Source: Pseudoruegeria sp. SHC-113 (GTDB lineage: Bacteria; Pseudomonadota; Alphaproteobacteria; Rhodobacterales; Rhodobacteraceae). Taken from it: a stretch of 64,000 bases of DNA. Below the pieces are notes generated by a model. The model did not search any database. It had not been told where the DNA came from and worked only from the letters and a program-made list of their open reading frames with translations. A program made the translations under genes and the position numbers. The stretch lies in assembly GCF_025376885.1 (NCBI RefSeq), contig NZ_JAHUBR010000001.1, positions 1,054,001 through 1,118,000 on the forward strand, in the 5' to 3' direction. The stretch's first letter is position 1, and each line of letters opens with the position of its first letter. Of the stretch, positions 1,031 through 64,000 are shown piece by piece.

Positions 1031-1035
1031 CCCTT

Positions 1036-1100: not shown

Positions 1101-1105
1101 CCCCG

Positions 1106-1993
1106 TCAGCCGCCCAGCCGGTCGATCAGGAAATCCATGAACACCCGCACTTTCGGGGTCAGCACATTGGAGCGCGGGTAGATCAGCCAGAGCACCGAGG
1201 CATCGTCCAGCCGCCACTCCGGCAAGACTCTCACCAACCGCCCCGCCGCCAGTTCCTCCCCCACGCTCCAGAGCGAGTTGAACGAAAGCCCCGCCCCGGC
1301 CAGCGTGGCGGCGCGCAAGGAATCGCCATCGTTCAGAATGGTGCGGCAGCTCATGGTCGCCAGATCCAGCCGCGCCTTCTGCCCGCTGTCATGTACCAGA
1401 GGCACGGCCTTCGTGGTGCACCAGGCCAGAAACTCGTGGCCCGCGAGGGCGTCCAGCGTTTCGGGCGTGTCATGCTGCGCGAGATAGGCGGGCGCGGCGC
1501 AGAGCACGCGGGTGTCTTCGGCGAGTTTGCGCCCGCGCAGGCTGCTGTCTTCTAGTGGTGCGGACCGCAGGGCCAGATCGAAGCTGCCCTCGATCAGGTC
1601 CAGACGGCTGTCGGAGAGATGCAGATCCAGCGTGATCTTCGGGTAGAGGGCATGAAACGCAGGAAGCAAGGGCATGATGTGCCGCTGCGCATAGCTTGCA
1701 GGCGCGGTGAAGTGCAGGGTGCCGCCGGGCCCGGCGGTGTCGAGCCCAAGGGCCGCGCGCCCGGCCTCGGCCTGGGCAAGGATCTCCCGCGCGTAAGGCA
1801 GGAAGGCCGCGCCCTCTTCGCTGAGCGAGACCTTGCGCGTGGTGCGGTGCAAAAGCTCCACCCCCAGCTCGTGCTCCAGCTTGGCGAGCCGCGCGCTGGC
1901 CACGGCGGGGGCGAGCCCCAGCTTGCGCCCGGCGGCGGAGATGTTGAGCCTCTCGGCGGCTGCCACGAAAAGGCGGAGCGTCTCTGTGTCCAT
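1106..1993 (-). CDS. LysR family transcriptional regulator
   Basis: DNA-binding regulator of 295 aa, the normal LysR length. The N-terminal winged helix-turn-helix spans about residues 1-60 (METLRLFVAAAERLNISAAG, then LAKLEHELGVELLHRTTRKV). The rest is the two-lobe co-inducer domain. It is divergent from the nitroreductase gene with a 111-base gap, the usual arrangement of a LysR protein controlling its neighbour, so a role in switching 2105-2812 is inferred. The ligand is unknown. Confidence 0.93.
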   Translation of the reverse strand: MDTETLRLFVAAAERLNISAAGRKLGLAPAVASARLAKLEHELGVELLHRTTRKVSLSEEGAAFLPYAREILAQAEAGRAALGLDTAGPGGTLHFTAPASYAQRHIMPLLPAFHALYPKITLDLHLSDSRLDLIEGSFDLALRSAPLEDSSLRGRKLAEDTRVLCAAPAYLAQHDTPETLDALAGHEFLAWCTTKAVPLVHDSGQKARLDLATMSCRTILNDGDSLRAATLAGAGLSFNSLWSVGEELAAGRLVRVLPEWRLDDASVLWLIYPRSNVLTPKVRVFMDFLIDRLGG

Positions 1994-2104
1994 GGGTGAT
2001 TATATCGAAAAGGCGAATTCTCTAATCCATTCTGTGCCGATTTTATCGCTGATCACAAGTGATACCTCCCTGTGACAGACATTCTCTGACAACAGGACCA
2101 GCCC

Positions 2105-2812
2105 ATGAACGCGATCACCCCAACCACCGCCGACGTCGCCGCCCAGATCCGCGCGGCTTTCGCCTTCCGCCACGCGACCAAGATTTTCGATCCCGCCCGC
2201 AAGGTCTCCGAGGCCGATATGGCGACGATCCTTGAGGCCGGGCGGCTCTCGCCCACCTCCTTCGGCCATGAGCCCTTCCGCATCCTGATGATCCAGAGCC
2301 CGGAGAAACGCGAGTTGTTTCGCGACTTTTCCTGGGGGGCGAACGGGATGATGAATGGTTCTGCGGGCCAGCTTGGCACCGCGAGCCATTTCGGCATCCT
2401 TCTGGCCGCGCGCGCGCCGCTGATGACGGCGGGTTCGGACTATCTGCTCAACCACTACCGCACGGTGAAACATCTGCCCGAAGAGGTCATCGAGCTGTTC
2501 AACGGCGCTTACGGCAAGTTTCAGAGCAGCGATCACAAGATCACCACGGATCGCGAGATCACCGACTGGTCGGGCAAACAGGCCTATATCGTGCTTGCCA
2601 ACATGATGACGGCGGCGGCGCTGCTGGGGGTGGATTCCTGCCCGATCGAGGGGTTCGATATGGCGCAGACGGCTGCAGTTCTGCAGGCGGAGTTCGGCAT
2701 CGACACCGAAGCCTGGCAGCCTGCCGTGATGTTTGCCTTCGGCCACCGCGCGCAAGAGCCTGCCTTCCCGCAGACCCGCCGCAGCATGGACGACACGGTC
2801 AGCTGGTTCTGA
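2105..2812 (+). CDS. NAD(P)H-dependent nitroreductase family protein (NfsB-like)
   Basis: FMN-dependent oxidoreductase of 235 aa. The N-terminal FAFRHATKIFDPARKVSE and the LEAGRLSPTSFGHEPFRI stretch (about residues 45-65) form the FMN-binding start of the nitroreductase fold. The C-terminal half has GVDSCPIEGFD, followed by the PAVMFAFGHR tail. Family members reduce nitroaromatics, quinones or enones. It is divergent from the LysR gene and followed by a strong hairpin, so it looks monocistronic. Confidence 0.92.
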   Translation: MNAITPTTADVAAQIRAAFAFRHATKIFDPARKVSEADMATILEAGRLSPTSFGHEPFRILMIQSPEKRELFRDFSWGANGMMNGSAGQLGTASHFGILLAARAPLMTAGSDYLLNHYRTVKHLPEEVIELFNGAYGKFQSSDHKITTDREITDWSGKQAYIVLANMMTAAALLGVDSCPIEGFDMAQTAAVLQAEFGIDTEAWQPAVMFAFGHRAQEPAFPQTRRSMDDTVSWF

Positions 2813-2820
2813 CCCAAACA

Positions 2821-2849
2821 CGGGCCGCGCAGCCTTGCGCGGCCCGTTT
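2821..2849 (+). terminator. Rho-independent-like terminator after nitroreductase gene
   Basis: Perfect 10-bp stem CGGGCCGCGC (2821-2830) and GCGCGGCCCG (2837-2846) with a 6-base loop, starting 8 bases after the nitroreductase stop and followed by a short TTTG. The T-run is weak. Confidence 0.7.
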
Positions 2850-2868
2850 GATCTGGGAGGAAAAGCCG

Positions 2869-3822
2869 ATGGCAGAGCAGGCGTTTGCAGAGATCAACCG
2901 GGGCTTCAACGCCACCTTTCGTGCGGGACGGCTGAGCCTTGGCCTCGTGGTGCCCGTTGCGGCCTATCCCGGCAGCCCGGTGCCAGATATGGAAGGCCAT
3001 CTGGCACGCGCGAAGCGGGCCGAGGCGCTGGGCTTTGCCGCGCTCTGGCTTCGGGATGTGCCCTTCAACGTGCCGAGCTTCGGCGATGCGGGGCAGCTTT
3101 TTGATCCCTTCACCTATCTCGGCTTTCTGGCCGGCCAGACCCGCGACATCGCCCTTGGCGTGGCCAGCATCGTGCTGCCCCTGCGCCACCCGGCCCATGT
3201 GGCCAAGGCGGCGGCCAGCGTGGATGTGCTCTCGGGTGGGCGGCTGATCCTCGGGGTGGCCTCGGGCGACAGGCCGGAGGAATACCCGGCGATGGGGGCG
3301 GATATCGAGGCCCGAGCGGAGGCCTTCCGGGAGAGCTTTGCCTATATCCGCGCCATGGGCGAGGCCACACCGCGGATCGTCAATCACTTCGGGCAGACCG
3401 ACGGGCGCATCGATATGTTGCCCAAACCCACGGGCACGCGCCTGCCGCTTCTTATCACCGGCTCCAGTCGGCAAGCGCCGGACTGGATCGCCGAACACGG
3501 CGATGGTTGGATGACCTATCCGCGTGGCGGGGCCGCTCAGGCGCAGGTGCTGGCAGACTGGCGGGCAAGTCTGGCGCGGCTGGGCCAGCCCGCAAAGCCC
3601 GTCCTGCAGCCGCTTTACGTGGATCTGGCGGAAGATCCCGATGAGGGCCCCAGCCCGATCCATCTGGGCGTGCGCACGGGCCATCGCTGGCTGCTGGCCT
3701 ACCTGAGAGAGCTTGAGGCCAGCGGCGTGCACCACGTGGCGCTGAACCTGCGGTTCAACCGCGCGCCGATCGACGCGACATTGGACAGGCTGGCGCGCGA
3801 CGTGCTGCCGTCCTTCACCTGA
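2869..3822 (+). CDS. LLM-class (luciferase-like) oxidoreductase
   Basis: Flavin-dependent TIM-barrel oxidoreductase of 317 aa. The start chosen is ATG 2869, preceded by GGGAGG at 2856-2861; a TTG further up has no good ribosome site. Visible family features are the N-terminal LGLVVPV strand, EALGFAALWLRD, SIVLPLRHPAHVAKAAAS and DVLSGGRLILGVASGDRPEEY, the typical luciferase-like flavin-site block at about residues 105-140. It may use FMNH2 (F420 is less likely here). It is followed 13 bases later by an SDR gene on the same strand, so the two are probably co-transcribed. Confidence 0.9.
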   Translation: MAEQAFAEINRGFNATFRAGRLSLGLVVPVAAYPGSPVPDMEGHLARAKRAEALGFAALWLRDVPFNVPSFGDAGQLFDPFTYLGFLAGQTRDIALGVASIVLPLRHPAHVAKAAASVDVLSGGRLILGVASGDRPEEYPAMGADIEARAEAFRESFAYIRAMGEATPRIVNHFGQTDGRIDMLPKPTGTRLPLLITGSSRQAPDWIAEHGDGWMTYPRGGAAQAQVLADWRASLARLGQPAKPVLQPLYVDLAEDPDEGPSPIHLGVRTGHRWLLAYLRELEASGVHHVALNLRFNRAPIDATLDRLARDVLPSFT

Positions 3823-3835
3823 AGGGAGAGCGAAG

Positions 3836-4624
3836 ATGAAAAAGACGATCCTGATCACCGGCGCGACCGACGGCATCGGCCGCGCCACGGCGCAGGCGCT
3901 GGCCGGCGATGGCCACCGGCCGATCCTGCACGGGCGCAATGCCGAGAAACTGGCCGCCGTGGCGGCTGAAGTTGGTGGAGAGGTACGCACAGAACTGGCG
4001 GACTTCGCGGATCTTTCTAAGGTCGCCGCGCTGGGCCGCCGCGTGGCGGAGGCCCATGGACCGGTGGACGTGTTGATCAACAACGCGGGCGTGTTGCGCA
4101 CCAGTCAGCCGCGCACCGCATCGGGGGAGGACGTGCGCTTCGTGGTGAACACATTCGCGCCTGCGTTGCTGTCCCGCCTGCTGCTGCCCGCCCTCGCGCC
4201 GGGGGCACGGCTTGTGCATCTCTCCTCGGCGGCGCAGGCCCCGGTGGATCTGGCCGCCCTGCGCGGTGAGAGGCCTTTGGAGGCGATGGAGGCCTATGCC
4301 CAGAGCAAGCTTGCGCTCACCCTGTGGAGTCAGGCCTTCGGGCAGGCGCACCCTGAGGGGCTGGTATCTGTGGCGGTCAATCCGGGCTCGCTTCTGGCCA
4401 CCAATATGGTGCGGGAGGGGTTTGGGATGGCTGGCCATGACATCGGGATCGGCGTGGGTATCCTCACGCGCGCCGCCCTGAGCCCTGAGTTCGCCACGGC
4501 GTCCGGCAAGTATTTCGACAATGACGCGGGCCGCTTCGCCGCGCCTCAGGCGGATGCCTCTGACCCGGCCAAGCTGCGCGCCGTGGTGGAGGCCATCGAG
4601 AGCCGGATCGCGGGCTATCTGTAA
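3836..4624 (+). CDS. SDR family NAD(P)-dependent oxidoreductase
   Basis: Classical short-chain dehydrogenase of 262 aa with a Rossmann fold. The cofactor motif TGATDGIG (residues 8-15), NNAGVL near residue 82, the catalytic Ser in HLSSAAQ and the YAQSK motif (Tyr and Lys) are all present. The long C-terminal part resembles retinol-dehydrogenase-like SDRs. A GGGAGAG ribosome site precedes ATG 3836. It pairs with the upstream LLM oxidoreductase; the substrate is unknown. Confidence 0.92.
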   Translation: MKKTILITGATDGIGRATAQALAGDGHRPILHGRNAEKLAAVAAEVGGEVRTELADFADLSKVAALGRRVAEAHGPVDVLINNAGVLRTSQPRTASGEDVRFVVNTFAPALLSRLLLPALAPGARLVHLSSAAQAPVDLAALRGERPLEAMEAYAQSKLALTLWSQAFGQAHPEGLVSVAVNPGSLLATNMVREGFGMAGHDIGIGVGILTRAALSPEFATASGKYFDNDAGRFAAPQADASDPAKLRAVVEAIESRIAGYL

Positions 4625-4651
4625 GGCGTTTCGGATCTATTTTTAAAAGGA

Positions 4652-4673
4652 AACGGGCCCCGAGGGGCCCGTT
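4652..4673 (-). terminator. Terminator hairpin between convergent genes
   Basis: Stem AACGGGCCCC (4652-4661) pairs perfectly with GGGGCCCGTT (4664-4673). Read on the minus strand it is followed by a T-rich run, so it best serves the molybdenum hydroxylase operon that ends at 4694. It also lies 28 bases past the SDR stop on the plus strand. Confidence 0.75.
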
Positions 4674-4693
4674 GCAGGTTTCTGGTGCTTCGT

Positions 4694-6877
4694 TCAGGCG
4701 AAGCTGACGCCGTGTTCGACCATCGGAAGATCGGCAATGGTCAGATCGCTGGCCGCCGCGATGGCATTGGCCAGCGCCGGGGCGGAGGGCGGGGTGCCCG
4801 GCTCGCCGATGCCGGTGGGGGCTTCGGTGGATTTGACGATATGCACCTCGATCGCGGCGATGTCGCCGATGCGCAGGGGCTCGTAGTCGGGGAAGTTGTA
4901 TTGCTCCACCGCGCCGCCTGCGAGCGTGATCTGATCGCGCATCGCGTGGCCGATGCCGTAGCCGATACCGCCTTCCATCTGGGCGCGGATGATGTCGGGG
5001 TTCACGGGGATGCCGCAATCCACCGCCGCCGTCACCTTCTCGATGCGGAAGCCGGCCTCTGCGGTGCCCGAAAGCTCCACAACTTCCGCCGCGTAGGAGC
5101 CGAAGGACTTGTGCACGGCAATCCCCATGGAGCGCCCTGTGGGCGCGTTGCCCCAGCCCGCTTTCTCGGCGGCGAGTTTCAGCACGGCGGATTTGCGCGC
5201 CTGATCGGCTCCGGTTCCTTGAAGGTGGGCGAGACGGAACTCCAGTGGATCGCGGCCCGCAGCCTTGGCGGCCATGTCCATCATCACTTCCATGGCGTAG
5301 GCCGTGTGGGTGTGGCCCACGGAGCGCCACCAGAGGGTGGAGGTGGCCTTCTTGGTATCGGTCAGGCCCACGAACATGCCGGGCACCTGATAGGGGGTGT
5401 CCGACACGCCCTCCACCGAAGAGCTGTCCACCCCGTCGTGCACGGCGAAGGCCTCAAACGCGGTGCCCTTCATGATGGACTGGCCCGCGATGCGGTGATC
5501 CCAGCCGAGGATGTCGCCCTCGGCGGAAAGCCCGACGCGCACCTTGTGGCCGAAGGCCGGGCGGTAGTAGCCGGAGCGCAGATCGTCTTCGCGGGTCCAG
5601 ACGAGCTTCACTGGGCGGGAGCGGTCCGTCATCACGAAGGCCAGCGCGGCCTCGACCTGGTAGTCCGCATCCGGCGTGGCGCGGCGGCCGAAGGAGCCGC
5701 CGGCGAGCATCGTGTTGATGTGGATCTTCTCTGCCGGCAGGCCAAAGATCTGCTGGTAGGCCATATGCGGCCCCGTGGGCATCTGCGCGCCGTCGTGGAG
5801 CACGATGTCGCCCTCCGCCGTCTGCTCGATGGTGCAGTTCAGCGGCTCCATAGGAGCATGGGCCAGAAGCGGGAAGTAGAAGGTTTTCTCGACCACTTGC
5901 GCCGCGCCCTCTATGGCGGCCAGCGTTGCGGCGTGATCCTTCTTCAGCACGTTGTATTCCGGCTCGGCGTCAAGCGCGGCCATGATCTCGGCGCGGATCT
6001 CATCAGACGAACGGGTTTCCGCCGCCGAAGTGTCCCACTCCACGCTGAGCGCCTCGCGGGCCTGGATCGCGGCCCAGGTGGTTTCGGCATAGACGGCCAC
6101 GCCGGCCTGATTGGGCAGCACCGCGGCGCGGATGTAGCCTTTGACGCCCTGCGCGCCGCTGTCGTCAAAGCCGGTGGCCAGCGCGCCCTTCTGTTCGGGG
6201 CGGGCGATCATCACCACCATCTGGTTGTCCAGATGCACATCCATGGCGAATTTCGCCTTGCCGTTGCCCTTGATCACGGAATCCAGCCGCCGGGTGCTTT
6301 CATTGCCGATGATGCGCCATTCCTCGGGCGTTTTGAGCCTTGGTTCGGCGGGCGGCTCCAACTGCGCGGCGGCAGCGACAAAATCGCCGATGGGCGCACT
6401 TTGGCTACCGCCAACAACCATGCCTTCCTCGATGGTAAGGCCGGACGGTTCAACGCCCCAAGCCTCGGCGGCGGCTTTGATCAGCATCTCGCGCGCGGCG
6501 GCCCCGGCCTGCCGGTATTGCATGAAACTGTTGGCCATGGCGGTAGAGCCGCCGGTGCCCTGGAAGGGGCCGAACAGAAGGTTGTTGTAGACCTGCGGGT
6601 TGGAGGGCGCGAAGGCGTATTGGATCTGATCCATGCGCAGGCCCAGTTCTTCGGCGATCAGCGTGGAGAGGCCGGTGGCCGGGCCCTGGCCCTTCTCGAA
6701 ATGCTTGATGATCGCGGTGAAATTGCCGTCTGCGTCGATCTTGACGAAGGGGTTCATCATCGCATCGGAAGAGGAGGCGGCAAGCGCCCCGTTCGGGCGG
6801 GCACCGATGAAGAGCGCGGCACCGGCAGCGGCGGCTGCGCCTTTCAGGAAGGAGCGGCGGGAGGTGGAAAGGGTCAT
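4694..6877 (-). CDS. Molybdopterin-binding subunit of an isoquinoline 1-oxidoreductase-type hydroxylase (IorB-like)
   Basis: Large Mo-cofactor subunit, 727 aa from ATG 6877; a longer frame upstream only overlaps the small-subunit gene. The N-terminus is a twin-arginine signal (RRSFLKG, then an Ala-rich core), so the folded enzyme should be exported. Motifs include GGSFGRRA, the repeated Mo-cofactor domain and GEPGTPPSAPALANAIA near the C-terminus, which carries the active-site Glu of the xanthine oxidase family. The small Fe-S subunit lies 4 bases upstream. No FAD subunit is present, as expected for the Ior type, which passes electrons to a cytochrome or quinone. The substrate is likely an aldehyde or N-heterocycle. 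Confidence 0.92.
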   Translation of the reverse strand: MTLSTSRRSFLKGAAAAAGAALFIGARPNGALAASSSDAMMNPFVKIDADGNFTAIIKHFEKGQGPATGLSTLIAEELGLRMDQIQYAFAPSNPQVYNNLLFGPFQGTGGSTAMANSFMQYRQAGAAAREMLIKAAAEAWGVEPSGLTIEEGMVVGGSQSAPIGDFVAAAAQLEPPAEPRLKTPEEWRIIGNESTRRLDSVIKGNGKAKFAMDVHLDNQMVVMIARPEQKGALATGFDDSGAQGVKGYIRAAVLPNQAGVAVYAETTWAAIQAREALSVEWDTSAAETRSSDEIRAEIMAALDAEPEYNVLKKDHAATLAAIEGAAQVVEKTFYFPLLAHAPMEPLNCTIEQTAEGDIVLHDGAQMPTGPHMAYQQIFGLPAEKIHINTMLAGGSFGRRATPDADYQVEAALAFVMTDRSRPVKLVWTREDDLRSGYYRPAFGHKVRVGLSAEGDILGWDHRIAGQSIMKGTAFEAFAVHDGVDSSSVEGVSDTPYQVPGMFVGLTDTKKATSTLWWRSVGHTHTAYAMEVMMDMAAKAAGRDPLEFRLAHLQGTGADQARKSAVLKLAAEKAGWGNAPTGRSMGIAVHKSFGSYAAEVVELSGTAEAGFRIEKVTAAVDCGIPVNPDIIRAQMEGGIGYGIGHAMRDQITLAGGAVEQYNFPDYEPLRIGDIAAIEVHIVKSTEAPTGIGEPGTPPSAPALANAIAAASDLTIADLPMVEHGVSFA

Positions 6878-6881
6878 CAGA

Positions 6882-7346
6882 TCAGGCCTCCATGATCTCT
6901 GCGGCGCGCTGGATACCGGCGCGGATTCGCTGGTAGGTCGCGCAACGGCAGGCGTTGCCGTACATGTAGTCGTCAATCTCTTGAGCGCTGGGCTTGGCGT
7001 TTTCCCGCAGCAGCCCGACGGCCGACATGATCTGCCCCGACTGGCAGTATCCGCATTGCACCACGTCCAGCTCGGCCCAGGCCTGCTGCACGGCCTGGCC
7101 GATCGGATCTTCCTCCATCTGCTCGATGGTGGTGATCTCGCTGCCTTCCACATCCTCGATGTAGGTCTGGCAGGAGCGCACCGGTTCGCCGTCCAGATGC
7201 ACGGTGCAGGCCCCGCAGGAGGCCACGCCGCAGCCGAATTTGGTGCCGGTGAGTTTCAATTCGTCCCGGATCACCCAGAGAAGGGGGGTGCCGGGCTCGG
7301 CCTCGACCTCATGGGTCTTGCCGTTCAGGGTAAGGGATATGGCCAT
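6882..7346 (-). CDS. 2Fe-2S subunit of the IorAB-type hydroxylase (IorA-like)
   Basis: Electron-transfer subunit of 154 aa with two [2Fe-2S] domains. The plant-ferredoxin-type cluster motif CGVASCGACTVHLDG is at about residues 38-52. The helical second cluster domain has CGYCQSGQIM and CRCATYQRI. It has no export signal of its own, fitting co-export with the Tat-tagged large subunit. It is the first gene of the operon; the divergent TetR gene and the operators at 7422-7480 lie just upstream. Confidence 0.94.
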   Translation of the reverse strand: MAISLTLNGKTHEVEAEPGTPLLWVIRDELKLTGTKFGCGVASCGACTVHLDGEPVRSCQTYIEDVEGSEITTIEQMEEDPIGQAVQQAWAELDVVQCGYCQSGQIMSAVGLLRENAKPSAQEIDDYMYGNACRCATYQRIRAGIQRAAEIMEA

Positions 7347-7421
7347 TGGGGGATCTCCTGTTGGAAGAGTGCCTGATGGGGTGATTGCGCCTGCGCCGAG
7401 GGGAGACGTGAGACTTCTTGG

Positions 7422-7480
7422 TGTAAACTGTGGCGTTTACTCTATCGTTGAATGCCGAGATGTAAACGCTAAAGTTTACA
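7422..7480. promoter_or_regulatory. Two palindromic TetR-type operators in divergent promoter region
   Basis: Two copies of TGTAAAC-N6-GTTTACA. The first is 7422-7440 (TGTAAACTGTGGCGTTTAC, last base imperfect) and the second 7461-7480 (TGTAAACGCTAAAGTTTACA, perfect 7-bp arms). They lie between the IorA start (7346) and the TetR start (7564). The spacing of about 39-40 bases puts them on nearly the same face of the helix. Confidence 0.8.
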
Positions 7481-7563
7481 CGGAAATGTGATTGCCCCTG
7501 CGACGCCCGGTTCCGCCCCTCTGCCCCTGTGCGAATGAGCTAGCCCGTGCTAAGGAAAAATCC

Positions 7564-8187
7564 ATGACGGATGCGACCCCCTGCACTGGCCCCACCTGCG
7601 AAAACCCGAAGCGGCTTCAGATCATCGAGGCCGCCGTGGCGGAATTTGGCGAGCGTGGCTTTGCCGAAGCGAGCATGGACAGGATCTCGGCGCGGGCCTG
7701 TGTGTCCAAGCGGACCGTCTACAAGCACTTCGAAAGCAAGGAAAATCTCTTTGCTGCCATTGCCGAGGAGATGTCGGCGCGAATGGCGGCGGAGCTGGAT
7801 GTGGCCTATGTGCCCGGTGAACCCATCGCGCCGCAGCTGATGCGGCTGGCGGAGGCGGAGGGGCGGATTTTCCGCTCGCCCGAGGCGATGGCGATGGCGC
7901 GGATGTGGCTGAGCGAGACGCTGCGCGCGCCGGAGATGGCGCAGAAGAGTCAGGCCAAGATCGACGCTCACGGTGCCTTCGCGCGCTTTCTGGCGGCGGC
8001 TTCGGCGGATGGAGCGCTCAGCCTAGATTCCGTGGATCGCGCCGCGAGCGAGTTTGTCGGCCTTCTGAAAGCGCGCGCCTTCTGGCCCCATGTGCTGGGC
8101 GGCACCGTGATCAGCGCCGAGGAGATGCAGGATGTGCAGCGCGAAGCTGTCGCCATGATGCTCGCGCGCTATGGCGTGGCCGGGTAG
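7564..8187 (+). CDS. TetR/AcrR family transcriptional regulator
   Basis: Repressor-type regulator of 207 aa from ATG 7564, preceded by AAGGAAAAA; an upstream TTG in frame is less likely. The helix-turn-helix is at about residues 18-65 (FGERGFAEASMDRISARACV, then SKRTVYKHFESKENLFAAI). The C-terminal ligand domain is TetR_C-like. It is divergent from the IorAB operon and next to two identical-type palindromes, so it probably represses both itself and iorAB. Confidence 0.93.
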   Translation: MTDATPCTGPTCENPKRLQIIEAAVAEFGERGFAEASMDRISARACVSKRTVYKHFESKENLFAAIAEEMSARMAAELDVAYVPGEPIAPQLMRLAEAEGRIFRSPEAMAMARMWLSETLRAPEMAQKSQAKIDAHGAFARFLAAASADGALSLDSVDRAASEFVGLLKARAFWPHVLGGTVISAEEMQDVQREAVAMMLARYGVAG

Positions 8188-8192
8188 GGCAC

Positions 8193-8600
8193 TTACCTGA
8201 GGATGAACACCGAGCAGGGCGCGCGGCGCGCAGCGCGGGCGGCGGTGGAGCCGAGCGCATAGCCGCGCGCGTCCGGGCTTTGGGCGCTGACCACGATCAG
8301 ATCCACGGCATTCTCAGAAGCATAGCTACAGATCTGCACCCCGGCCTTGCCCTTCACCACGGCCGTTTCAACGCCCTCTTCGGTGGCGGCGATGGCCTCG
8401 AGCCGTTCCTTCACGCGATTGGAGAGGTGGTTTTCGGCGCTGACCGTGACGAACTCAGCCACGAAGCCGGGGATGTCCTCCAATACTGTGAGCAGGGTGA
8501 TGCGCCCGCCGGGGGCCAGCAGGTGGCGGGCGGTGGCGATCTTGCGGGCGGCGGCCCCTTCGTGATCAAGGGCGACGGGGATCAGGATGTGGGAATACAA
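8193..8600 (-). CDS. Universal stress protein (UspA family)
   Basis: 135-aa single-domain Usp protein. The start MYSHILIPVALDHEG and the ATP-binding-type end (VVSAQSPDARGYALGSTAARAARRA, i.e. G-2x-G-9x-G(S/T)-like) fit the family, although the motif is degenerate. It lies last in the minus-strand run behind the sulfolactate genes. Its role there is unknown; Usp genes often ride along with sulfonate and TRAP transport operons. Confidence 0.85.
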   Translation of the reverse strand: MYSHILIPVALDHEGAAARKIATARHLLAPGGRITLLTVLEDIPGFVAEFVTVSAENHLSNRVKERLEAIAATEEGVETAVVKGKAGVQICSYASENAVDLIVVSAQSPDARGYALGSTAARAARRAPCSVFILR

Positions 8601-8623
8601 GGCCTTGGCCCTCCTTTGACGGG

Positions 8624-9640
8624 TTAAACTGGCGCAAGGCCCGCAAGGGCGCGGGCCTGCTCAACGTAGGCTTTTGGCACCGCGATCCCTTCGGCTTGCG
8701 CGCGGGCAAGAGTTTTGATGCGGCGGGTGCCGGGCAGCCGTGCGCCCTCGGCCCCTTCGATAAGCGACAGCAGCGCTTCAAGCCGGGTGGCAAAGCCAGC
8801 GGCGTCCGCAGGTTGCAGGGCCAGTAGGAACTGGCCCGCGCCGGGGGGCGGGCCGTCGGCGGTGAAGAAAGAGGAGATGCCGGGGCTGGCATTGGCCCCC
8901 GTGAAGCTGGCGGCGAGGATCTCGACCATCAGGGCAAGGGCCGTGCCCTTGGCCTCGCCGATGGGCAGCATCGTGCCCGTAAGCGCGGCCTCTGCATCCG
9001 TCGTCGGCTGGCCCTCGGCATCAAGCGCCCAGCCCTCGGGGATCGGCTGGCCGGATTTCTTCGCATGCATCACCTTGCCTCGCGCCACACGCGAGAGCGA
9101 CAGATCGATGACAAGCGGCGGCTTGCCGGGCCTTGGCACGGCGAAGGCGATGGGGTTGGTTCCGAACACCGGGGTTTTGGCCCCAAAAGGCGCCATGGCG
9201 GCGGGCGCATTGGCAACCATCAGCCCCACGAGCCCGGCCTGCGCGAGCTTCTCCACCTGCACGGACAGTGCGCCGCAATGGTGGGAGCGGCGGATGGCGA
9301 GCGAGGCGGTGCCTGCCGCCTGCGCGGCCTCGATCAAGGCGGTGATCCCGGCCTCAAGCGCGGGGTAGGCAAAGCCGTGGGCGGCGTCCACTTCCACCCG
9401 GCCGGGCGCGGTGCGCTGGCAAATGGGCACGGCTGCGCCATCGACCTTGCCCGTCTGAACCTGAGCCGCGTAATCCGCCAGCCGCGAGAACCCGTGGCCG
9501 ACCTGGCCCTCGGCCTCTGCCGCCACAAGCGCGCGCGCCACGGAGGCGGCGGCAGGTGCGGCCACGCCCACGCCCGCCAGAGCGCTGGCGATCAGCGCTT
9601 CGGCCTCGGCGAGCGAAAGGATCTCATGGCTTTCAGACAT
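8624..9640 (-). CDS. Malate/L-lactate (LDH2) family dehydrogenase, possible (R)-sulfolactate dehydrogenase
   Basis: NAD(P)-dependent 2-hydroxyacid dehydrogenase of 338 aa from ATG 9640; TTG 9646 is an alternative. LDH2 features are GHGFSRLADYAAQVQTGKV, IRRSHHCGALS (with the catalytic-type His pair), GTNPIAFAVPRPG and IDLSLSRVARGKVMHAKKSG. The ComC-type (R)-sulfolactate dehydrogenase belongs to this family. Lying directly behind suyB in a DHPS operon, it may interconvert sulfolactate and sulfopyruvate. That specificity is inferred from context only; malate, lactate or ureidoglycolate remain possible. Confidence 0.85.
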   Translation of the reverse strand: MSESHEILSLAEAEALIASALAGVGVAAPAAASVARALVAAEAEGQVGHGFSRLADYAAQVQTGKVDGAAVPICQRTAPGRVEVDAAHGFAYPALEAGITALIEAAQAAGTASLAIRRSHHCGALSVQVEKLAQAGLVGLMVANAPAAMAPFGAKTPVFGTNPIAFAVPRPGKPPLVIDLSLSRVARGKVMHAKKSGQPIPEGWALDAEGQPTTDAEAALTGTMLPIGEAKGTALALMVEILAASFTGANASPGISSFFTADGPPPGAGQFLLALQPADAAGFATRLEALLSLIEGAEGARLPGTRRIKTLARAQAEGIAVPKAYVEQARALAGLAPV

Positions 9641-40650: not shown

Positions 40651-40740
40651 GGAGACGTGGCCGAGTGGTCGAAGGCGCTCCCCTGCTAAGGGAGTAGGCG
40701 GGAAACCGTCTCGAGGGTTCGAATCCCTTCGTCTCCGCCA
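40651..40740 (+). tRNA. tRNA-Ser(GCU)
   Basis: 90 bases including an encoded CCA (40738-40740). The acceptor arm GGAGACG (40651-40657) pairs with CGTCTCC (40730-40736). The anticodon loop CTGCTAA gives GCU, flanked by CTCCC/GGGAG. There is a long variable arm as in serine tRNAs, and the T loop GGTTCGAATC is present. Its 3' end is the integration site of the element that follows. Confidence 0.96.
40724..40736. other. Left attachment core (attL) within tRNA-Ser
   Basis: TCCCTTCGTCTCC, the T-arm and acceptor 3' strand of tRNA-Ser, repeated exactly at 45988-46000. Because the tRNA remains intact, the element restored its 3' end on insertion. Confidence 0.75.
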
Positions 40741-40780
40741 TCACACATAACGTGTTGTTATTGCGAGGTTTTTGCGACGA

Positions 40781-40811
40781 TGTCCAACGGCTTGTTGTCC
40801 AGAATGGACCA
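40781..40811. other. Candidate integrase arm-type sites, left end
   Basis: TGTCCAAC (40781-40788), GTTGTCCA (40794-40801) and the inverted ATGGAC (40804-40809) cluster between the tRNA and the integrase start. The same words recur at 45901-45936 near the right end. Inferred role: integrase or excisionase arm sites. Confidence 0.55.
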
Positions 40812-40833
40812 CAGGAAGGCCGAGACAGACGAC

Positions 40834-42225
40834 ATGCGATACCTCGTTCAGCCTCGCGGCCCCGGCAAAAGCTGGGTGTTTCGTATGGTAACTCCCCATG
40901 ACCTCGTGGGTGTTCCAAACCCGTGGGATGGAAAGCCGCTCGGGAAAGAGATCAAGAGAGGGCTTGGGACACGCCAATTAACCGAGGCCCGTAAGCGCCG
41001 TGACATCGCGCTGGGCGACATCCGCAGGCTTCAGGATGGTTTGAGCGACGGTGAAACCTTTTCGCTCGCCTCTGCAGTTCAGTGGCGGGAGACAATCTTG
41101 GCTGATCAGGCCGAGGCCGAAGCTCGCGATGATGGATCCAACGTAGGCTCAGAGTTTGTACTGCACCACATGCTGGAGCAAGCTGAGGCGCGTGGTATTC
41201 CTCGGGACCAGCTCAAGCGTTTCGCTCGTGTTGCCACAGGGAAGGGGTTCCCGCTCGATGTTGCTCACTCCCAGTACGTGGAAGCTCGGAAAGTCGGAAA
41301 CGCCTTCGGTTTCGCTCCATTGAAGCGCACAACGATTATGAACCTCGATACGGCAATCAAGCATCTACGCGCCCATCTCAGCGATGAAGCGAAGACTGCC
41401 TGCTTGGAGGACGTGACGCCAGAGGTCGCTCTTCGATTTCGTGACGTGTACCTCCCCTCAGCCCGCAGTCATCGCAGCCCTGAGGGCTTATCAGCTCAGA
41501 CGGTAGCTAAGAACGTTAATCTGCTGAAACAGCTCTGGCTCTGGGCAATCGAGAGTGGGCACCTTGGGAGAAAAGCCCGAAACCCTTGGGAGTTCAGGAG
41601 GGGTCTTCGCCGTTCCGCAGGGAACCGTGAACAGGTCCGGCAGGACTACCAGCCGAAAGAGTTCTCCAAACTCCTGAAGGCGACCAGCAGAGGCACCAAG
41701 GAGGGCGATCTGATCCGCCTCGCCATCGCCACCGGCTGCCGTGCGGACGAGCTTGCAACGATCTCCTCCGCTCAGGTCCGCAACGATGGATCTGGCTTTG
41801 ACCTCACCGACGGCAAGACAAAGAACGCCCGTCGCTTCATTCCCGTCGTAGGTGACGCCAGAGCGCTTCTACAGGACCGTGTAGCGGCGCATGGCCCGAC
41901 TGGCAGGCTCTTTCCCGAGTGGCCCATCAGACCCGCCTCAGGGAAAGCTGCAGCGGTCTCGCAGTGGTTTACACGCTTCCGCCGAAAGGAGCTGGGGAAA
42001 GAATCTGACGGACGCCTCGCCCTTCACTCGACCCGCCACACATGGCGCACTGTTGCCCGCCGCGCCAACGTTGACGAGGCAGCAATCAACGACCTTGGAG
42101 GATGGGCAGGACCTCGTAAGTCAAACTCAGCGTATGACCATGGCTTGCTTGAGGGGCAGCTTGTTGAAGCGCAAGGGAAGGTCTGGGACGAGTTGCAGCG
42201 AGCAGGGTATCTGGACGGGTTTTAG
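40834..42225 (+). CDS. Tyrosine recombinase/integrase
   Basis: 463 aa from ATG 40834, with AGGAAGG upstream; ATG 40780 is an alternative, but that stretch carries repeated candidate arm sites. The N-terminal part (RYLVQPRGPGKSWVFRMVTP) is the arm-binding type common in alphaproteobacterial prophage integrases. The catalytic domain holds the first Arg in AIATGCRADELATI, HSTRHTWRT (His and Arg) and the Tyr nucleophile in NSAYDHG. It lies 3' of tRNA-Ser and inserts the element there. It ends in a 4-base overlap with the convergent coiled-coil gene. Confidence 0.93.
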   Translation: MRYLVQPRGPGKSWVFRMVTPHDLVGVPNPWDGKPLGKEIKRGLGTRQLTEARKRRDIALGDIRRLQDGLSDGETFSLASAVQWRETILADQAEAEARDDGSNVGSEFVLHHMLEQAEARGIPRDQLKRFARVATGKGFPLDVAHSQYVEARKVGNAFGFAPLKRTTIMNLDTAIKHLRAHLSDEAKTACLEDVTPEVALRFRDVYLPSARSHRSPEGLSAQTVAKNVNLLKQLWLWAIESGHLGRKARNPWEFRRGLRRSAGNREQVRQDYQPKEFSKLLKATSRGTKEGDLIRLAIATGCRADELATISSAQVRNDGSGFDLTDGKTKNARRFIPVVGDARALLQDRVAAHGPTGRLFPEWPIRPASGKAAAVSQWFTRFRRKELGKESDGRLALHSTRHTWRTVARRANVDEAAINDLGGWAGPRKSNSAYDHGLLEGQLVEAQGKVWDELQRAGYLDGF

Positions 42226-43496
42226 CCTCGGCCAGCGGCCTTCAAAACGTCGGAAATCATTTTCACAGCGCTTGGGTCGATACCGCCGTCTTTCGCTTCA
42301 GGTGTTACTCTGTTTTGTCCAAAGAGTTTTTGGGTCAACTGATTTTTGAGTTCAAAACGTATGTCGTCAGGAAGCGACGAGAGGAAGGGGTCAATCGCTT
42401 TCACCTCCAAGGCGAACCAACGCATGTGCTGTTCTGTCAATCGGTGGACGCTCGACTGTCTCGCTGCGTAACCGCCCATGCCGAGAAAGACAAATGTTAG
42501 AGACGCAGCTGCAAGCAACTCAGGCCAGTTCGGTGAACCATCAGTGTTTGCTTCGAAGCCCATGAAGTACTTCAGAAGAAGCCACAAGCCGGCAGCAATG
42601 AACGATCCCATCGCTACCCACCGCCAAGTGTTAGCAGCTTTATGCTCATCTTCAGCGCTCTTTTGGTAACCCCCGGCGACACCATCTGTTCCAACCAACT
42701 TATGGATTTCGAGAATGTCTTTGTGTTTGGCTTTTGCGTCGAGAAGGTGTGTTTTGATGCGTTCTTCAAATGTCGCGAAAGCATCGCTTAACTTCTTGTT
42801 GTGGTCGGAACTAATACTCTTGACCTCAGCTTCGGATTTGTCACGCCATTCACGAAGGGCTGTATCGAACTGCTTTCTTCGCTCAATTTGATTTGTAGAA
42901 AACTCTTCTGCACGAGTTGTTTGAGCTGTTGTGAACTCACCCTGCCAGTCGCTGAAAGCTTGATCCGTCTGTTTTTCGAGATCGCTAAGTGCCAGCTTGA
43001 GTTTCGAAGTCGCTTTCTCTACCTCGGCAAGCTTTGTCTCACCTTGCTCAATGCGACTGGAAAAGTCTTTCTCGCGGGTCTCAATCGCTTTGCAAAACTT
43101 GTCGTATGCTTTTTCGATTTCCCGCAGCTTGGGCGTCACTCCGGTCGCATTACGCGAGAACATTAGCCCAACGAAAGGATGTAGTTTGTCTGCAAGAAAA
43201 TCGTTTGCCGCTCGAAGTTGTTGTACGCTCGGACTCGATGAATAGGTTTTGAGGTTGCTCCATACTTGGGCCTGTCGCAGTTGCTGATCAAGTTGCGTGA
43301 GCGGCAACAATGGGAAAAGCTCGGGGTCGACTTCACTCAATGATACGCCAATTGCGTCGAGAGTTTTGAAGAACCTGCGTCGTTCGACCTCATGCTCACT
43401 GTCAATTTGCTCAACATTAACGTTCAGCCACTCCCTCAGTTGCGCAAGTGAGTTATGGATTTGATGACCTTCAAACTGCTCAGCCCAACGCGACAT
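42222..43496 (-). CDS. Coiled-coil protein with C-terminal two-helix membrane anchor, unknown function
   Basis: 424 aa from ATG 43496. The N-terminal third is globular. A long charged coiled coil follows at about residues 120-260 (heptad-rich runs such as KLREIEKAYDKFCKAIETRE and LALSDLEKQTDQAF). Two membrane segments come next (WRWVAMGSFIAAGLWLLLKYF and LLAAASLTFVFLGMGGYAA), then a soluble C-terminal domain with RLTEQHMRWFALEVKAIDPF. No catalytic motif is visible. It is the main cargo gene of the element; a defence or superinfection role is possible but not shown. Confidence 0.8.
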   Translation of the reverse strand: MSRWAEQFEGHQIHNSLAQLREWLNVNVEQIDSEHEVERRRFFKTLDAIGVSLSEVDPELFPLLPLTQLDQQLRQAQVWSNLKTYSSSPSVQQLRAANDFLADKLHPFVGLMFSRNATGVTPKLREIEKAYDKFCKAIETREKDFSSRIEQGETKLAEVEKATSKLKLALSDLEKQTDQAFSDWQGEFTTAQTTRAEEFSTNQIERRKQFDTALREWRDKSEAEVKSISSDHNKKLSDAFATFEERIKTHLLDAKAKHKDILEIHKLVGTDGVAGGYQKSAEDEHKAANTWRWVAMGSFIAAGLWLLLKYFMGFEANTDGSPNWPELLAAASLTFVFLGMGGYAARQSSVHRLTEQHMRWFALEVKAIDPFLSSLPDDIRFELKNQLTQKLFGQNRVTPEAKDGGIDPSAVKMISDVLKAAGRG

Positions 43497-43640
43497 GGAA
43501 ATACCTTGTTTTAGTCCAATGGATGTGCACAACTTTTAGATGTGAAATTGCTTCTTGGCCAGACATCTGTAGCGGCGATTTTCGGAAGACCGGTCACCCG
43601 GTTTGCCGGATCTTCAGAGAAACAAATACAGGCAAAAAGA

Positions 43641-44183
43641 TCACCTAAGAACTCTGTAAACCGACGTCCTCGCGATCCCAAGTTCTCGGGCAATTTCTGT
43701 CGCTCCCATACCCTCAACATCCCTGAGCCTCTTCACTTCGTCTACGTCGATGGACGGTTTGCGTCCCCTGTAGATCCCCGCAGCTTTCGCTTTGGCGATC
43801 CCTTCCATCTGCCGTTCACGCCGCAAGTTCGTTTCGAACTCAGCGAAGACCCCAAGCATTTGGAAGAAGGCCTTGCCAGCTGCACTACTGGTATCCACAG
43901 GCTGCTCTGTCGCTTTAAGCGCCACACCATTCTCTTGAAGCTCTCTGGCGATCCCGGAGAGATCGTCCATTGAGCGGGCAAGGCGATCAAGCCGCGTCAC
44001 GACCAGCACGTCTCCCGGCCTCAGGAAATCCATCAAGGTCTTCAATTCTTCGCGCCCCTGTCTGCTTGTCCCGCTGATCTTCTCCTCACGGATGATCTCG
44101 CAGCCCGCCGCACTTAACGCTTCGCGCTGTATCGTCAGGTCTTGATCTGCGGTAGAGACACGCGCGTATCCGTATGTAGCCAT
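43641..44183 (-). CDS. Serine recombinase (resolvase/DNA invertase family)
   Basis: 180 aa from ATG 44183. The catalytic domain starts YGYARVSTADQDL with the nucleophile Ser in ARVS. LVVTRLDRLARSMDDL and the FAEFETNLRRERQMEGIAKAKA long helix follow. The C-terminal helix-turn-helix is GMGATEIARELGIARTSVYRVL. This is the small Tn3-resolvase/invertase type. It may resolve dimers of the element or invert a segment. Its 5' region holds a long inverted repeat that covers the ribosome site. Confidence 0.93.
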   Translation of the reverse strand: MATYGYARVSTADQDLTIQREALSAAGCEIIREEKISGTSRQGREELKTLMDFLRPGDVLVVTRLDRLARSMDDLSGIARELQENGVALKATEQPVDTSSAAGKAFFQMLGVFAEFETNLRRERQMEGIAKAKAAGIYRGRKPSIDVDEVKRLRDVEGMGATEIARELGIARTSVYRVLR

Positions 44184-44190
44184 CGTTGTT

Positions 44191-44259
44191 TGTCCTTTTT
44201 GGGTCTTTGACCCTTCCTCTGTATTGTCCTGTATTTCTGAAAGCAACCCTAAAAGGACA
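44191..44259 (-). promoter_or_regulatory. Inverted repeat masking the serine recombinase ribosome site
   Basis: TGTCCTTTTTGGGT (44191-44204) and ACCCTAAAAGGACA (44246-44259) are 14-base arms with one mismatch. In the recombinase mRNA the arm next to the start contains the AAGGA ribosome site, so pairing would block translation. The same DNA could be a recombinase binding (res-like) site. Confidence 0.5.
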
Positions 44260-44602
44260 CGCAATCTGTTCTGTCGCAGTGTTCAGTAAGGGTATACCCC
44301 ATCGCGACACATGTGGTCTGGGGCTTATCGTCCTCCACCTCGTCCGCTCAACGATGACGGCAGGGCTTTCAATGCAAATGGGGGCTAATAACAGGGCCTT
44401 ACTTTGCTTTAGCATTTGAAGGACATGCGTTACGACCGTCCTAATTTTCAAAGCCTTCCCTCCTTTCAGGTGCGTCTACGCCCAGCGCGGCCCGTTCGTC
44501 ACATCCCGCTTGTCAGTGGAACTGTTGCGCTCCCCATCTGGTCGGAATTTACTGTAGTGCTGCGGTCGCTTCAGGCTTCGACTGACGCCCAATTTCACGC
44601 TT
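44260..44602. other. Gap with no supported gene (left part of 44260-44808)
   Basis: Short open frames exist but lack ribosome sites and recognisable proteins. I see no promoter or RNA gene that I can support here. Confidence 0.5.
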
Positions 44603-44700
44603 GCCTCTGAGGGGCGCTGAGCGAGCCTCTGAGGGGGTGTCCTACGGGTGGCCCCCCCTCTCTTGCTCAGAGAACGCCCCTCTTTCGCAAGCCTACGGGG
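44603..44700. repeat. Cluster of short direct and inverted repeats
   Basis: GCCTCTGAGGGG occurs at 44603-44614 and 44625-44636. CCTACGGG occurs at 44641-44648 and 44692-44699. GAGGGGCG (44609-44616) is inverted as CGCCCCTC (44675-44682), with TGAGC/GCTCA between them. It lies about 110 bases from the end of the ParB-like gene, so it could be a centromere-like or origin-like site, or just a terminator. Confidence 0.45.
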
Positions 44701-44808
44701 GAGAACATTCATCTCCGTGTTTATGATGATGCTCTGAAAAATGTGCGGCGTAAAACACGTCGGGTCCCATTGGGTAAGGGCTGGGGATGTAATGGTAAGG
44801 GAGGAAGT

Positions 44809-45603
44809 TCAGTCCACGTCGCCGTCATCGTCCATGAGGCAATAAGGGTCGATCATGTCCCCAAGCTCGTAGTGAATGTATTCATCGTAGAGGTACTGTA
44901 GCCCTTTTCGTCCGAGCCGCTTTGCTACCACGGCGCATGCCGCCTCAACCTGCAGGCCTGCCATGAAGCCGAGGTCGCGACCAATCTTTTCATCCAGCTC
45001 AGCTGTCTTTGCCTCAATCATCAATTCTCGCTCCTCTTCGGTATACTCCCGCCTTTCCCGGTCCTTCAGAGTAGCCATCGCCTGTCGCCAGTGCTTGGGC
45101 AGACCGTCATCGGGGTTAAGCTCCTGAAGTGCTCTTAGAGTGCTTCGCATGTTGGCGACGGTGCGCTCGCTTGCACCAGTTGCCTTTGCGATGGCTTTTC
45201 TGCTGTAGATACTCGGACCAAGACACACGAGCCTCCACGCTGCGTCGGTTCTTTCCTCGGACGTCAATGGCAGTCGAGCCTTGCTGTTCTCAGCCAAAGC
45301 CATCAATTGAGCTTGTTCGATTCCGCATTGATGAACTACGACGGGGACTTTCTTCCGCCATTCCGCTTGCCGGTATGCAGCGAGCCTGTGATGGCCATCC
45401 ACGACGACCATCTGTTCTTTGTCCGGATCCATCCAAATCGTTATTGGATCAAGCACGTTTCCGTTGTCCAGCACCTTAGCAAGTTCGTCCACATGGTGCT
45501 GATCGACTTCAAAATGCCGAAACTGAAATACTCCAGGATTCGTAGTGATGTAGCGAAGGCTCACGTTCTGCCGCGCTGGCCGGGCAGGGTGTTGTTTTGT
45601 CAT
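44809..45603 (-). CDS. ParB/Srx-fold DNA-binding protein
   Basis: 264 aa from ATG 45603. The ParB nuclease-like N-domain has the GxHR-type motif VVVDGHHRLAAYRQA at about residue 70, with upstream VDELAKVLDNGNVLDPITIW. A helix-turn-helix follows (SIYSRKAIAKATGASERTVANMRSTL). The C-terminal part is charged. No ParA partner is encoded in the element, so it may act as a regulator or CTP switch rather than in partitioning. Confidence 0.85.
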   Translation of the reverse strand: MTKQHPARPARQNVSLRYITTNPGVFQFRHFEVDQHHVDELAKVLDNGNVLDPITIWMDPDKEQMVVVDGHHRLAAYRQAEWRKKVPVVVHQCGIEQAQLMALAENSKARLPLTSEERTDAAWRLVCLGPSIYSRKAIAKATGASERTVANMRSTLRALQELNPDDGLPKHWRQAMATLKDRERREYTEEERELMIEAKTAELDEKIGRDLGFMAGLQVEAACAVVAKRLGRKGLQYLYDEYIHYELGDMIDPYCLMDDDGDVD

Positions 45604-45900
45604 GGTTTTTCCGTTTCCAAAGTGCGGTTTGGTGCTTTGAGAGAGCCTGCTGAGCCTGTGCAGAATACACACCCCTGAAGCTGCACACCCCAGCGTCACT
45701 GGGGAGACCGCGTCTGTTACTTCTCAGGCTTGAGCGTAGGGGACAACCCGCCCACCGGGCATTAAGTCAAATACAGGCCCAGCCGACTTGCTTCTCGATG
45801 GGGGAACCTAAAGCGATCCTTCTGTAATGGTGGGCCTTAAGGCGGCAGAGAAATTCTCAATGATGTCCACCAATGCTTGCGCTACCGCGTCGCACATGCT
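45604..45900. other. Gap without a gene inside the element
   Basis: About 300 bases upstream of the ParB-like gene, which should hold its promoter. Only short dyads are seen (CCCCAGCGTCACTGGGG near 45690). No coding frame with a ribosome site is apparent. Confidence 0.45.
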
Positions 45901-45936
45901 GTTGTCCAACAAGGACAACGCTCAAAATGGACAACG
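45901..45936. other. Candidate integrase arm-type sites, right end
   Basis: GTTGTCC-AACAA-GGACAAC (45901-45919) is a perfect 7-bp dyad, and ATGGACAACG (45927-45936) repeats its right arm. These words match those at 40781-40811 at the other end of the element, 50-90 bases inside the attachment core. Confidence 0.55.
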
Positions 45937-45987
45937 TCAGAGCGAAAAGCAAAGTGATAACATGCGGTTAGTTGGAGGGGGGAAGTC

Positions 45988-46000
45988 TCCCTTCGTCTCC
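45988..46000. other. Right attachment core (attR)
   Basis: TCCCTTCGTCTCC, an exact copy of the 3' part of tRNA-Ser at 40724-40736. The IS3 transposase homology stops right at this point. Confidence 0.7.
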
Positions 46001-46330
46001 CCATTGCGCACTCGCACGAAAGTGATGTCGGCGCACCATACTTGGTTCAGGCGCTGGATCTGCATCTTTCTCAGCAGATACGGATACACTGGATGGTGGG
46101 GGTGCGGCTGGCTGGTTTTGGGCCTTTTGTAGATCGCCTCGAGGCCCATCTTCGCCATCAGTCTCCTGACGCGATGACGCCCGACAACAATCCCTTCCCG
46201 GCGCAGATAGCCAGCGATCTGCCGCGACCCGAAGAACGGGTATCTGGTGAACACACGGTCGATCTCGTTCATCATCGCCAGCGTGTCCGCGTCGATGCCG
46301 ACTGCTTGTATTGCAAATCCCCCGTCCTCT
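46001..46330 (-). pseudogene. Truncated IS3-family transposase (OrfB N-terminal part)
   Basis: On the minus strand the frame reads MMNEIDRVFTRYPFFGSRQI, then RVRRLMAKMGLEAIYKRPKTS and NQVWCADITFVRVRNG, classical IS3 OrfB blocks before the DDE core. After VRNG the expected FLYLVAI continuation is lost and the sequence runs into the attR core. The 5' part near 46275-46330 is also incomplete. This is a remnant, not an active element. Confidence 0.85.
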
Positions 46331-60288: not shown

Positions 60289-60389
60289 GCGGGGCTCTGC
60301 CCCGCACCCCGGGATATTTTCGCCAGGATGAAGGGGCCCCATTTCCTCTTGCCACAAATACCTCGGGGGTGCGGGGGCAGAGCCCCCGC
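60289..60389. repeat. Two-hairpin dispersed intergenic repeat, copy B
   Basis: A first hairpin GCGGGGC-TCT-GCCCCGC (60289-60305), a conserved middle with GGGATATTTT, GATGAAGGGGCCCC and CCTCTTGCC, and a second hairpin GCGGGGGC-AGA-GCCCCCGC (60371-60389). Copy C at 63752-63851 has the same order and near-identical length. It lies between the PopZ-like gene and convergent cobQ, so it can also end transcription. Confidence 0.85.
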
Positions 60390-60397
60390 GGCGCCCG

Positions 60398-63721: not shown

Positions 63722-63750
63722 AAGGGGCGCGGTTGCGCCCCTTTGTTTTT
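63722..63750 (+). terminator. Rho-independent terminator of efp
   Basis: AAGGGGCGC (63722-63730) and GCGCCCCTT (63735-63743) form a perfect 9-bp stem with loop GGTT, followed by TGTTTTTT. Confidence 0.92.
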
Positions 63751-63751
63751 T

Positions 63752-63851
63752 GCGAGGCTCTGCCTCGCGCTCCGGGATATTTTGACCAAGATGAAGGGGC
63801 CCCTTTCCTCTTGCCAAAAATACCTCGGGGGTGCGGGGGCAGAGCCCCCGC
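63752..63851. repeat. Two-hairpin dispersed intergenic repeat, copy C
   Basis: First hairpin GCGAGGC-TCT-GCCTCGC (63752-63768), middle with GGGATATTTT, GATGAAGGGGCCCC and CCTCTTGCC, second hairpin GCGGGGGC-AGA-GCCCCCGC (63833-63851). Compared with copy B, both sides of the first stem changed together (G-C to A-T), which keeps the pairing. Confidence 0.85.
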
Positions 63852-63853
63852 TC

Positions 63854-64000
63854 TTACGTTTGCAGCAGTCGTAACGTTGCGTCACCGGCGCGCAAGGGGC
63901 CGCTCGTTCGGTCAAATCGCAGGTAGGCGAGCGCCTTTTGGCCGCTTTGAGTGAAGAGTGTGCCGGCGGGTTTTCCCTCTGCGGTGATCTCGCTGCCCTC
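63854..64000 (-). CDS. ygfZ: Folate-binding YgfZ-like protein (C-terminal end only)
   Basis: The minus-strand frame is open from the window edge to a TAA at 63854-63856. The 48 residues seen include GTLFTQSGQKALAYLRFDR and end in ATLRLLQT, the C-terminal barrel of YgfZ/GcvT-like folate-binding proteins. These support Fe-S cluster repair and tRNA modification. The rest lies outside the window. Confidence 0.75.
   Translation of the reverse strand, partial: EGSEITAEGKPAGTLFTQSGQKALAYLRFDRTSGPLRAGDATLRLLQT

Follow-up and report, generated by a model that had tools for sequence, protein, structure and literature searches.

The I55-type islands and integrase-only "phage defence elements" of Pseudomonas combine a tyrosine integrase and defence cargo with direct repeats and insertion behind an RNA gene, and they lack genes for transfer; the I55-type islands sit at tmRNA, and neither a ParB-like protein nor a resolvase with a res site has been described for them (PMC12595487). 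The PICMI satellites of Vibrionaceae, about 6 kb in size, have an integrase, 17-bp repeats and a defence hotspot including PARIS and restriction-modification (RM) systems, and are defined by int, alpA and prim, with fis as their site (PMC10803314). By their review descriptions, tycheposons and VEIMEs are likewise marine integrase elements without autonomous transfer genes. Here we analyzed a stretch of 64,000 nucleotides of the genome of Pseudoruegeria sp. SHC-113 (contig NZ_JAHUBR010000001.1, positions 1,054,001 to 1,118,000; hereafter the window), in which a preliminary description made from the sequence alone had proposed a compact element in a tRNA-Ser gene. Positions 40724-46000 of the window are indeed a real compact mobile element in the tRNA-Ser gene of this marine-type alphaproteobacterium. 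The element works as the integrase-only Pseudomonas islands do (PMC12595487) and has the size and layout of a PICMI (PMC10803314), while falling outside the definitions of PICMIs (neither alpA nor prim was found), integrative and conjugative elements and integrative mobilizable elements. It is a member of an apparently undescribed family that shuttles genes for anti-phage defence by means of an integrase, a resolvase that has its own res site and a ParB-like protein; no description of a family combining integrase, ParB and resolvase was found in the open-access literature.

Integration site, ends and integrase

The target of integration is the tRNA-Ser(GCT) gene at 40651-40740 (forward strand), the only near-identical copy found in its own genome; the other matching copy is the GGA isoacceptor, at 88%. 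As the preliminary description had noted, the tRNA end is duplicated 5.3 kb away: the 13-nt core TCCCTTCGTCTCC occurs exactly, on the forward strand, at 40724-40736 (the left attachment site, attL) and at 45988-46000 (attR), with 5264 bp between the copies. No longer repeat of the tRNA end was found downstream of the gene; in relatives the core extends to 17-19 nt, up to CCA. When the 23 kb downstream were simulated with a first-order Markov model, one run in 300 produced a match of 13 nt or more to the tRNA end (about 0.003 sites expected). The GC content of the element is 54%, compared with 63% in the left flank. The element would span from the first base past the tRNA to attR at 46000, and the predicted attP junction joins GAAGTCTCCCTTCGTCTCC to GCCATCACAC.

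Relatives were sought in a scan of named genomes and in two samples, each with about 390 genomes. The samples contained 11 and 14 carriers, the window's own genome included, and all sample matches to the integrase fall in the same family. Just upstream of the relatives' integrases lies a tRNA gene (Ser GCT, Ser CGA, Cys or Arg), with an exact repeat of the tRNA 3' end downstream. These repeats, of 17-23 bp, bound elements of 2.3-12.5 kb: L003 (18 bp, 9.8 kb), L004 (19 bp, 2.3 kb, a deletion remnant), L007 (18 bp, 7.6 kb), L057 (20 bp, 5.7 kb), L058 (18 bp, 6.4 kb), L059 (19 bp, 6.4 kb), L060 (18 bp, 4.3 kb), L062 (17 bp, 7.2 kb), L063 (23 bp, 7.0 kb, no tRNA predicted), L084 (17 bp, 4.7 kb), L086 (19 bp, 7.9 kb), L087 (17 bp, 12.5 kb, a tRNA-Arg-like end with no whole tRNA predicted) and L089 (17 bp, 9.6 kb). 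Relatives with these genes and no att repeat, an outcome that the preliminary description had considered, were therefore not what we found. L007 and L060 have another integrase gene past their right att site, so tandem islands occur. The remnant L004 (131-2538) keeps both att sites and the arm boxes, with truncated integrase and ParB frames fused and no resolvase.

The arm boxes lie just inside both ends: ATGTCCAAC, GTTGTCCA and ATGGACCAC (inverted) at 40780-40812, and GTTGTCCAAC, AAGGACAAC and AATGGACAAC at 45900-45936 (forward strand). The three recurring words of the preliminary description were all found where it had placed them, and they differ in weight. TGTCCAAC, at 40781 and 45903, has no other copy in the window; GTTGTCCA, at 40794 and 45901, has a further copy at 45463; and ATGGAC, at 40804 and 45927 and also at 43750, has 16 copies in the window and is weak alone. 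The sharing of 6-7-mers between both arm zones was reached in only 2-3 of 2000 shuffles. Each end of the integrase-family elements carries inverted and direct copies of one box, and the box varies: GTTGTCC-like in the window element, L003, L004, L007 and L058, GTGGTAC/GTGGTCC in L059, L060 and L084, GGGTCC in L057 and GTGGTGT in the Arg group. Word sharing is higher between the left and right boxes of one element than between boxes taken from different elements (6-mers, 107 vs 59, permutation p 0.00025; 7-mers, 63 vs 28, p 0.00055; 8-mers, 31 vs 14, p 0.011). Co-variation of integrase and arm sites would give such a match, to which shared descent contributes too. In the elements with GTTGTCC-like boxes the last right box begins 58-59 bp ahead of the core, and this conserved spacing sets the right end of the window element at 46000. 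It rules out an element that reaches far past this position, the other outcome considered beforehand, as well as a larger island of which the element would be a part.

The tyrosine integrase gene (PF00589) occupies 40834-42225 on the forward strand, in a frame open from 40780. Two observations make the ATG at 40834 its probable start: in the longest frame the first codons overlap the left boxes, and the relatives share a common start, M-[RQKH]-[YNSI]-[LI]; the left boxes are probably arm DNA and not integrase codons. In the integrase tree, users of tRNA-Ser(GCT) and tRNA-Ser(CGA) interleave. Close integrases (the window element and L007 versus L003, L004 and L005; L059 versus L060 and L084) use one or the other of these genes, and the element family has therefore changed its tRNA target more than once. 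With an integrase beside a tRNA gene, direct repeats of the tRNA end and matching arm sites at both ends, the locus has the layout of a tRNA-targeting island.

Resolvase, res site and ParB-like protein

The preliminary description had listed a tyrosine integrase, a serine recombinase and a ParB-like protein, and no relaxase or phage structure genes. Profile search of the element's proteins agrees on each point (PF00589; PF00239 with HTH_7; PF02195); the element also encodes a 436-aa coiled-coil protein. The earlier view that this is an odd set has to be given up: the set is recurrent, with a resolvase in 12 of the 14 delimited elements of the integrase family, and the ParB profile retrieves further tRNA-borne elements.

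The serine resolvase gene lies at 43641-44183 on the reverse strand. Its product of about 180 aa scores 139.9 bits for the resolvase N-terminal domain and 39.2 bits for HTH_7, and is 77-84% identical to the resolvases of three relatives. Adjoining the gene, on the same strand, are three putative subsites: III at 44191-44213, II at 44225-44259 and I at 44280-44309, the last centred on GGGTATACCC. Such a three-subsite layout is that of a Tn3-type res site. Three TGTC...ACA-like subsites, recognised by inspection and conserved spacing, lie upstream of the resolvase in most members examined, with a GGGTATACC-like centre in site I and a AGGGTTGA-like core in site II. The marks of sites I and II are exactly 45 nt apart in all nine copies in which both are recognisable, while the resolvases drop to 33-46% identity with that of the window. 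Since the res layout is conserved and the resolvase recurs, the serine recombinase is most plausibly a module for the resolution of multimers, served by a res site of its own, and not a second integration enzyme. The resolving chemistry is probably the same as in the Tn3 family; unlike Tn3 transposons, however, the element has no TnpA transposase among its open reading frames (ORFs), and its ends are integrase att sites.

The ParB-like protein is encoded at 44809-45603 on the reverse strand, in a frame open to 45699. It has a ParB_N domain (PF02195, 29.3 bits against a curated cut-off of 26.3) and a helical DNA-binding region, falls below the TIGR00180 cut-off, and finds ParB and Noc as its best PDB matches. 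It thus resembles the ParB and Noc proteins of ParABS systems in its ParB_N fold and helical domain, as judged by profile, but has a DGHHR motif instead of the canonical GERR and lacks a ParA partner among the element's genes (ORF list and profile search).

The gene is present in six elements of the integrase family (the window element, L058, L059, L060, L062 and L084). Members without it often have other probable DNA-binding proteins, judged by eye to be zinc-ribbon-like in L003 and L089 and Bro-N-like in L087 and L088. A profile built from four ParB sequences, used alone, matched in 19 of 390 genomes, and at nine of the 12 further loci not cut by a contig end a resolvase was found close by (profile). 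Six of the loci found in this way combine a tRNA gene, a tyrosine integrase of another lineage and exact repeats of 16-26 bp that bound 6.4-9.2 kb; their tRNAs are Val (L134), Ala (L135), Ser(TGA) (L136), Leu (L137 and L140) and Phe (L138). Judging from these loci, with their resolvases and unrelated integrases, ParB and resolvase read as a module that has been joined to different integrases. In addition, the viral contig L116 (IMGVR_UViG_3300048599_000759, 480-9409) carries in order a res-like region, a resolvase, ParB, a tyrosine integrase, a primase-like protein and a gpA terminase, an order that hints at traffic with phages.

Exchangeable defence cargo

The cargo of the window element lies at 42222-43496 on the reverse strand, tail-to-tail with the integrase, and encodes a coiled-coil protein of 424-436 aa with a hydrophobic C-terminal region. 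Over its length it shares 28% identity with a protein whose gene lies in an hsdM-hsdS-X-DUF4268-hsdR operon of a Vibrio crassostreae plasmid, and this gene neighbourhood makes a defence role of the window cargo likely. The homologue itself (L145, 6761-13733), within a type I restriction operon and adjoining DUF4268, is possibly an unrecognised accessory of type I systems.

Across the family the cargo varies by element; most of it consists of anti-phage defence genes, and its usual place is the interval between integrase and resolvase. We identified Gabija (GajA and GajB) in L003, an AriA-like ATPase with DUF4435 (PARIS-like) in L062, type III RM in L088, a T5orf172/Eco57I-type RM (type IIG-type) in L089, an MmeI-like protein (type IIG-type RM) in L133, a type ISP/IIG RM in L137, ImmA/IrrE with DUF4411 and a KAP NTPase in L087, and GHKL-type ATPases of 656-705 aa in L057, L134, L140 and, by eye, L138. 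The relatives thus share with I55-type islands the carriage of defence genes in the absence of transfer genes; for the window cargo, defence is indicated only through the gene neighbourhood of the homologue. The 657-aa GHKL ATPases of L057 and L134 are 76% identical in spite of unrelated integrases, which is direct evidence that cargo moves between elements. GHKL ATPases of 656-657 aa (36-76% identical) are the lone cargo of L057, L134 and L140, whose integrases are unrelated, and form a candidate single-gene defence system.

Proposed movement of the element and alternative readings

Read directly from the DNA, the element has ends, arm sites, intact integrase, resolvase and ParB frames, a res site, a recurrent gene set and exchangeable defence cargo. 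We consider it quite probable that it is a compact integrative element of Rhodobacterales that operates as follows. The tyrosine integrase would bind the arm boxes at both ends and recombine the 13-18-bp tRNA-end cores, giving integration and, with a directionality factor, excision. The serine recombinase, acting on the adjacent three-part res, would resolve either dimeric excised circles or elements inserted in tandem in one tRNA gene, and the ParB-like protein may bind element DNA as an aid to segregation, regulation or packaging. Cargo slots, mainly the interval between integrase and resolvase, would carry exchangeable anti-phage genes, here the coiled-coil membrane protein. Transfer between cells would require a helper, because the element has no relaxase, replication or capsid genes.

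Several observations weigh against this reading. No excisionase was recognised in the element. The resolvase is missing in the remnant L004 and in L063, where the integrase is broken by a transposase, and the ParB-like gene is absent from L003, L007, L057 and L086-L089, so that ParB is not indispensable. Against known defence models the window cargo gave no direct match, and its coiled-coil similarity to ZorA/LeoBC is weak. Comparison with relatives lacking the element, a check put forward in the preliminary description, gave a one-sided answer: the same-genus genomes G001 and G002 have the tRNA and lack this integrase, but no clean two-sided empty site was found, the right flanks differing in G001, G002 and G122. 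In G001 the upstream synteny and the tRNA are kept, but what follows downstream corresponds to DNA behind tRNA-Ser(TGA) in the window's genome; in G002 the downstream DNA differs. When joined-flank probes for L084, L086 and L087 were run against congeners, they matched on the left side and in the tRNA only.

Finally, the copy in the window may be stranded, as its attR lacks GCCA and abuts an insertion sequence (IS) fragment. This decayed IS3-family transposase fragment (46000-46302, reverse strand) lies outside the element, and its homology starts exactly at the core edge. Because relatives keep GCCA behind the right core, whereas the window has CCATTG, and IS3 homology begins at 46000, we infer that the fragment replaced the original right flank. 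Integrase-mediated recombination into an IS3 copy was rejected as the cause, since intact IS3 copies do not resemble the core at that place; for the same reason an illegitimate deletion is likelier. Excision of the window copy would leave CGTCTCC followed by C, where the tRNA has its G discriminator, and no second GCT copy was seen in the window's genome; loss could therefore be harmful, and the element may be stranded.

Two further observations concern the surroundings. A locus of the sister species G001 behind tRNA-Ser(GCT), with a large serine recombinase gene (L019, contig C22), is 93-98% identical to a locus behind tRNA-Ser(TGA) in the window's genome (L053, G000:C1:916743 onward), and reflects an island or a rearrangement switching between serine tRNA genes. 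The window also has GC-rich repeats of about 100 bp that resemble hairpins, near 60290-60395 and 63750-63856; dozens of further copies are scattered through the genus.

Among the alternatives, a phage satellite is a tentative possibility. A helper phage would induce excision and package the element, with the ParB-like protein marking its DNA for the helper terminase and the resolvase cutting concatemers to monomers. Small size, a tRNA site, defence cargo and the absence of transfer genes are shared with PICMIs and I55-type islands (PMC10803314, PMC12595487), in contig L116 this kind of resolvase and ParB accompanies an integrase, a gpA terminase and a primase-like protein, and a packaging role has been proposed for phage ParB-like genes that adjoin terminase genes (PMC6536676). 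However, the window element has no AlpA, primase, capsid, capsid-remodelling or terminase-small gene, and a search with its integrase found nothing in 50,697 phage records and no close match in IMG/VR; a ParB search of phage records was also negative. Phage-inducible chromosomal islands (PICI) and P4-like elements are recognised by primase-replicase, capsid-size or packaging-redirecting genes; the element's main proteins matched none, which places it outside that class. A more specific form of this idea is doubtful: a new Rhodobacterales satellite family with ParB-like protein and resolvase/res, shared with phages, as its hallmark, in which ParB would mark DNA for helper packaging and the resolvase would both make monomers and recombine tandem elements, thereby exchanging cargo among lineages with unrelated integrases.

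It is also unlikely that the locus is an integrative mobilizable element, on which a conjugative plasmid would act through an unrecognised oriT, with resolvase and ParB serving the circular form. Its plasmid-like functions and lack of phage genes would suit such a role, but no relaxase or type IV secretion gene matched among its proteins, and neither the integrase nor ParB has a relative in 72,556 plasmid records. An accidental assembly, in which a degraded integrase island, a transposon resolvase and an IS came to lie together and the 13-bp repeat is a coincidence, could account for the IS3 remnant at the right edge and for resolvase alleles that are more alike than the integrases; it is very improbable given that the same set occurs with exact att repeats in many genera and that the arm-core and res spacings are fixed. 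Some serine recombinases are integrases, but that this one is the true integration enzyme, or the mark of a second, nested element, is the least credible reading, given its small resolvase/invertase architecture, the adjacent three-subsite res and the tyrosine-integrase arm and core structure of the ends.

With this analysis, what had looked like an isolated oddity becomes one member of a family that can be defined, made up of small defence carriers (about 4-13 kb) in a bacterial order of ecological importance. It raises the question of why a multimer-resolution system is kept by an element without replication or transfer genes of its own. The signature of a tRNA gene, a tyrosine integrase and a resolvase with res, often with a ParB-like protein, finds new members, and new anti-phage genes can be sought in their cargo slots.
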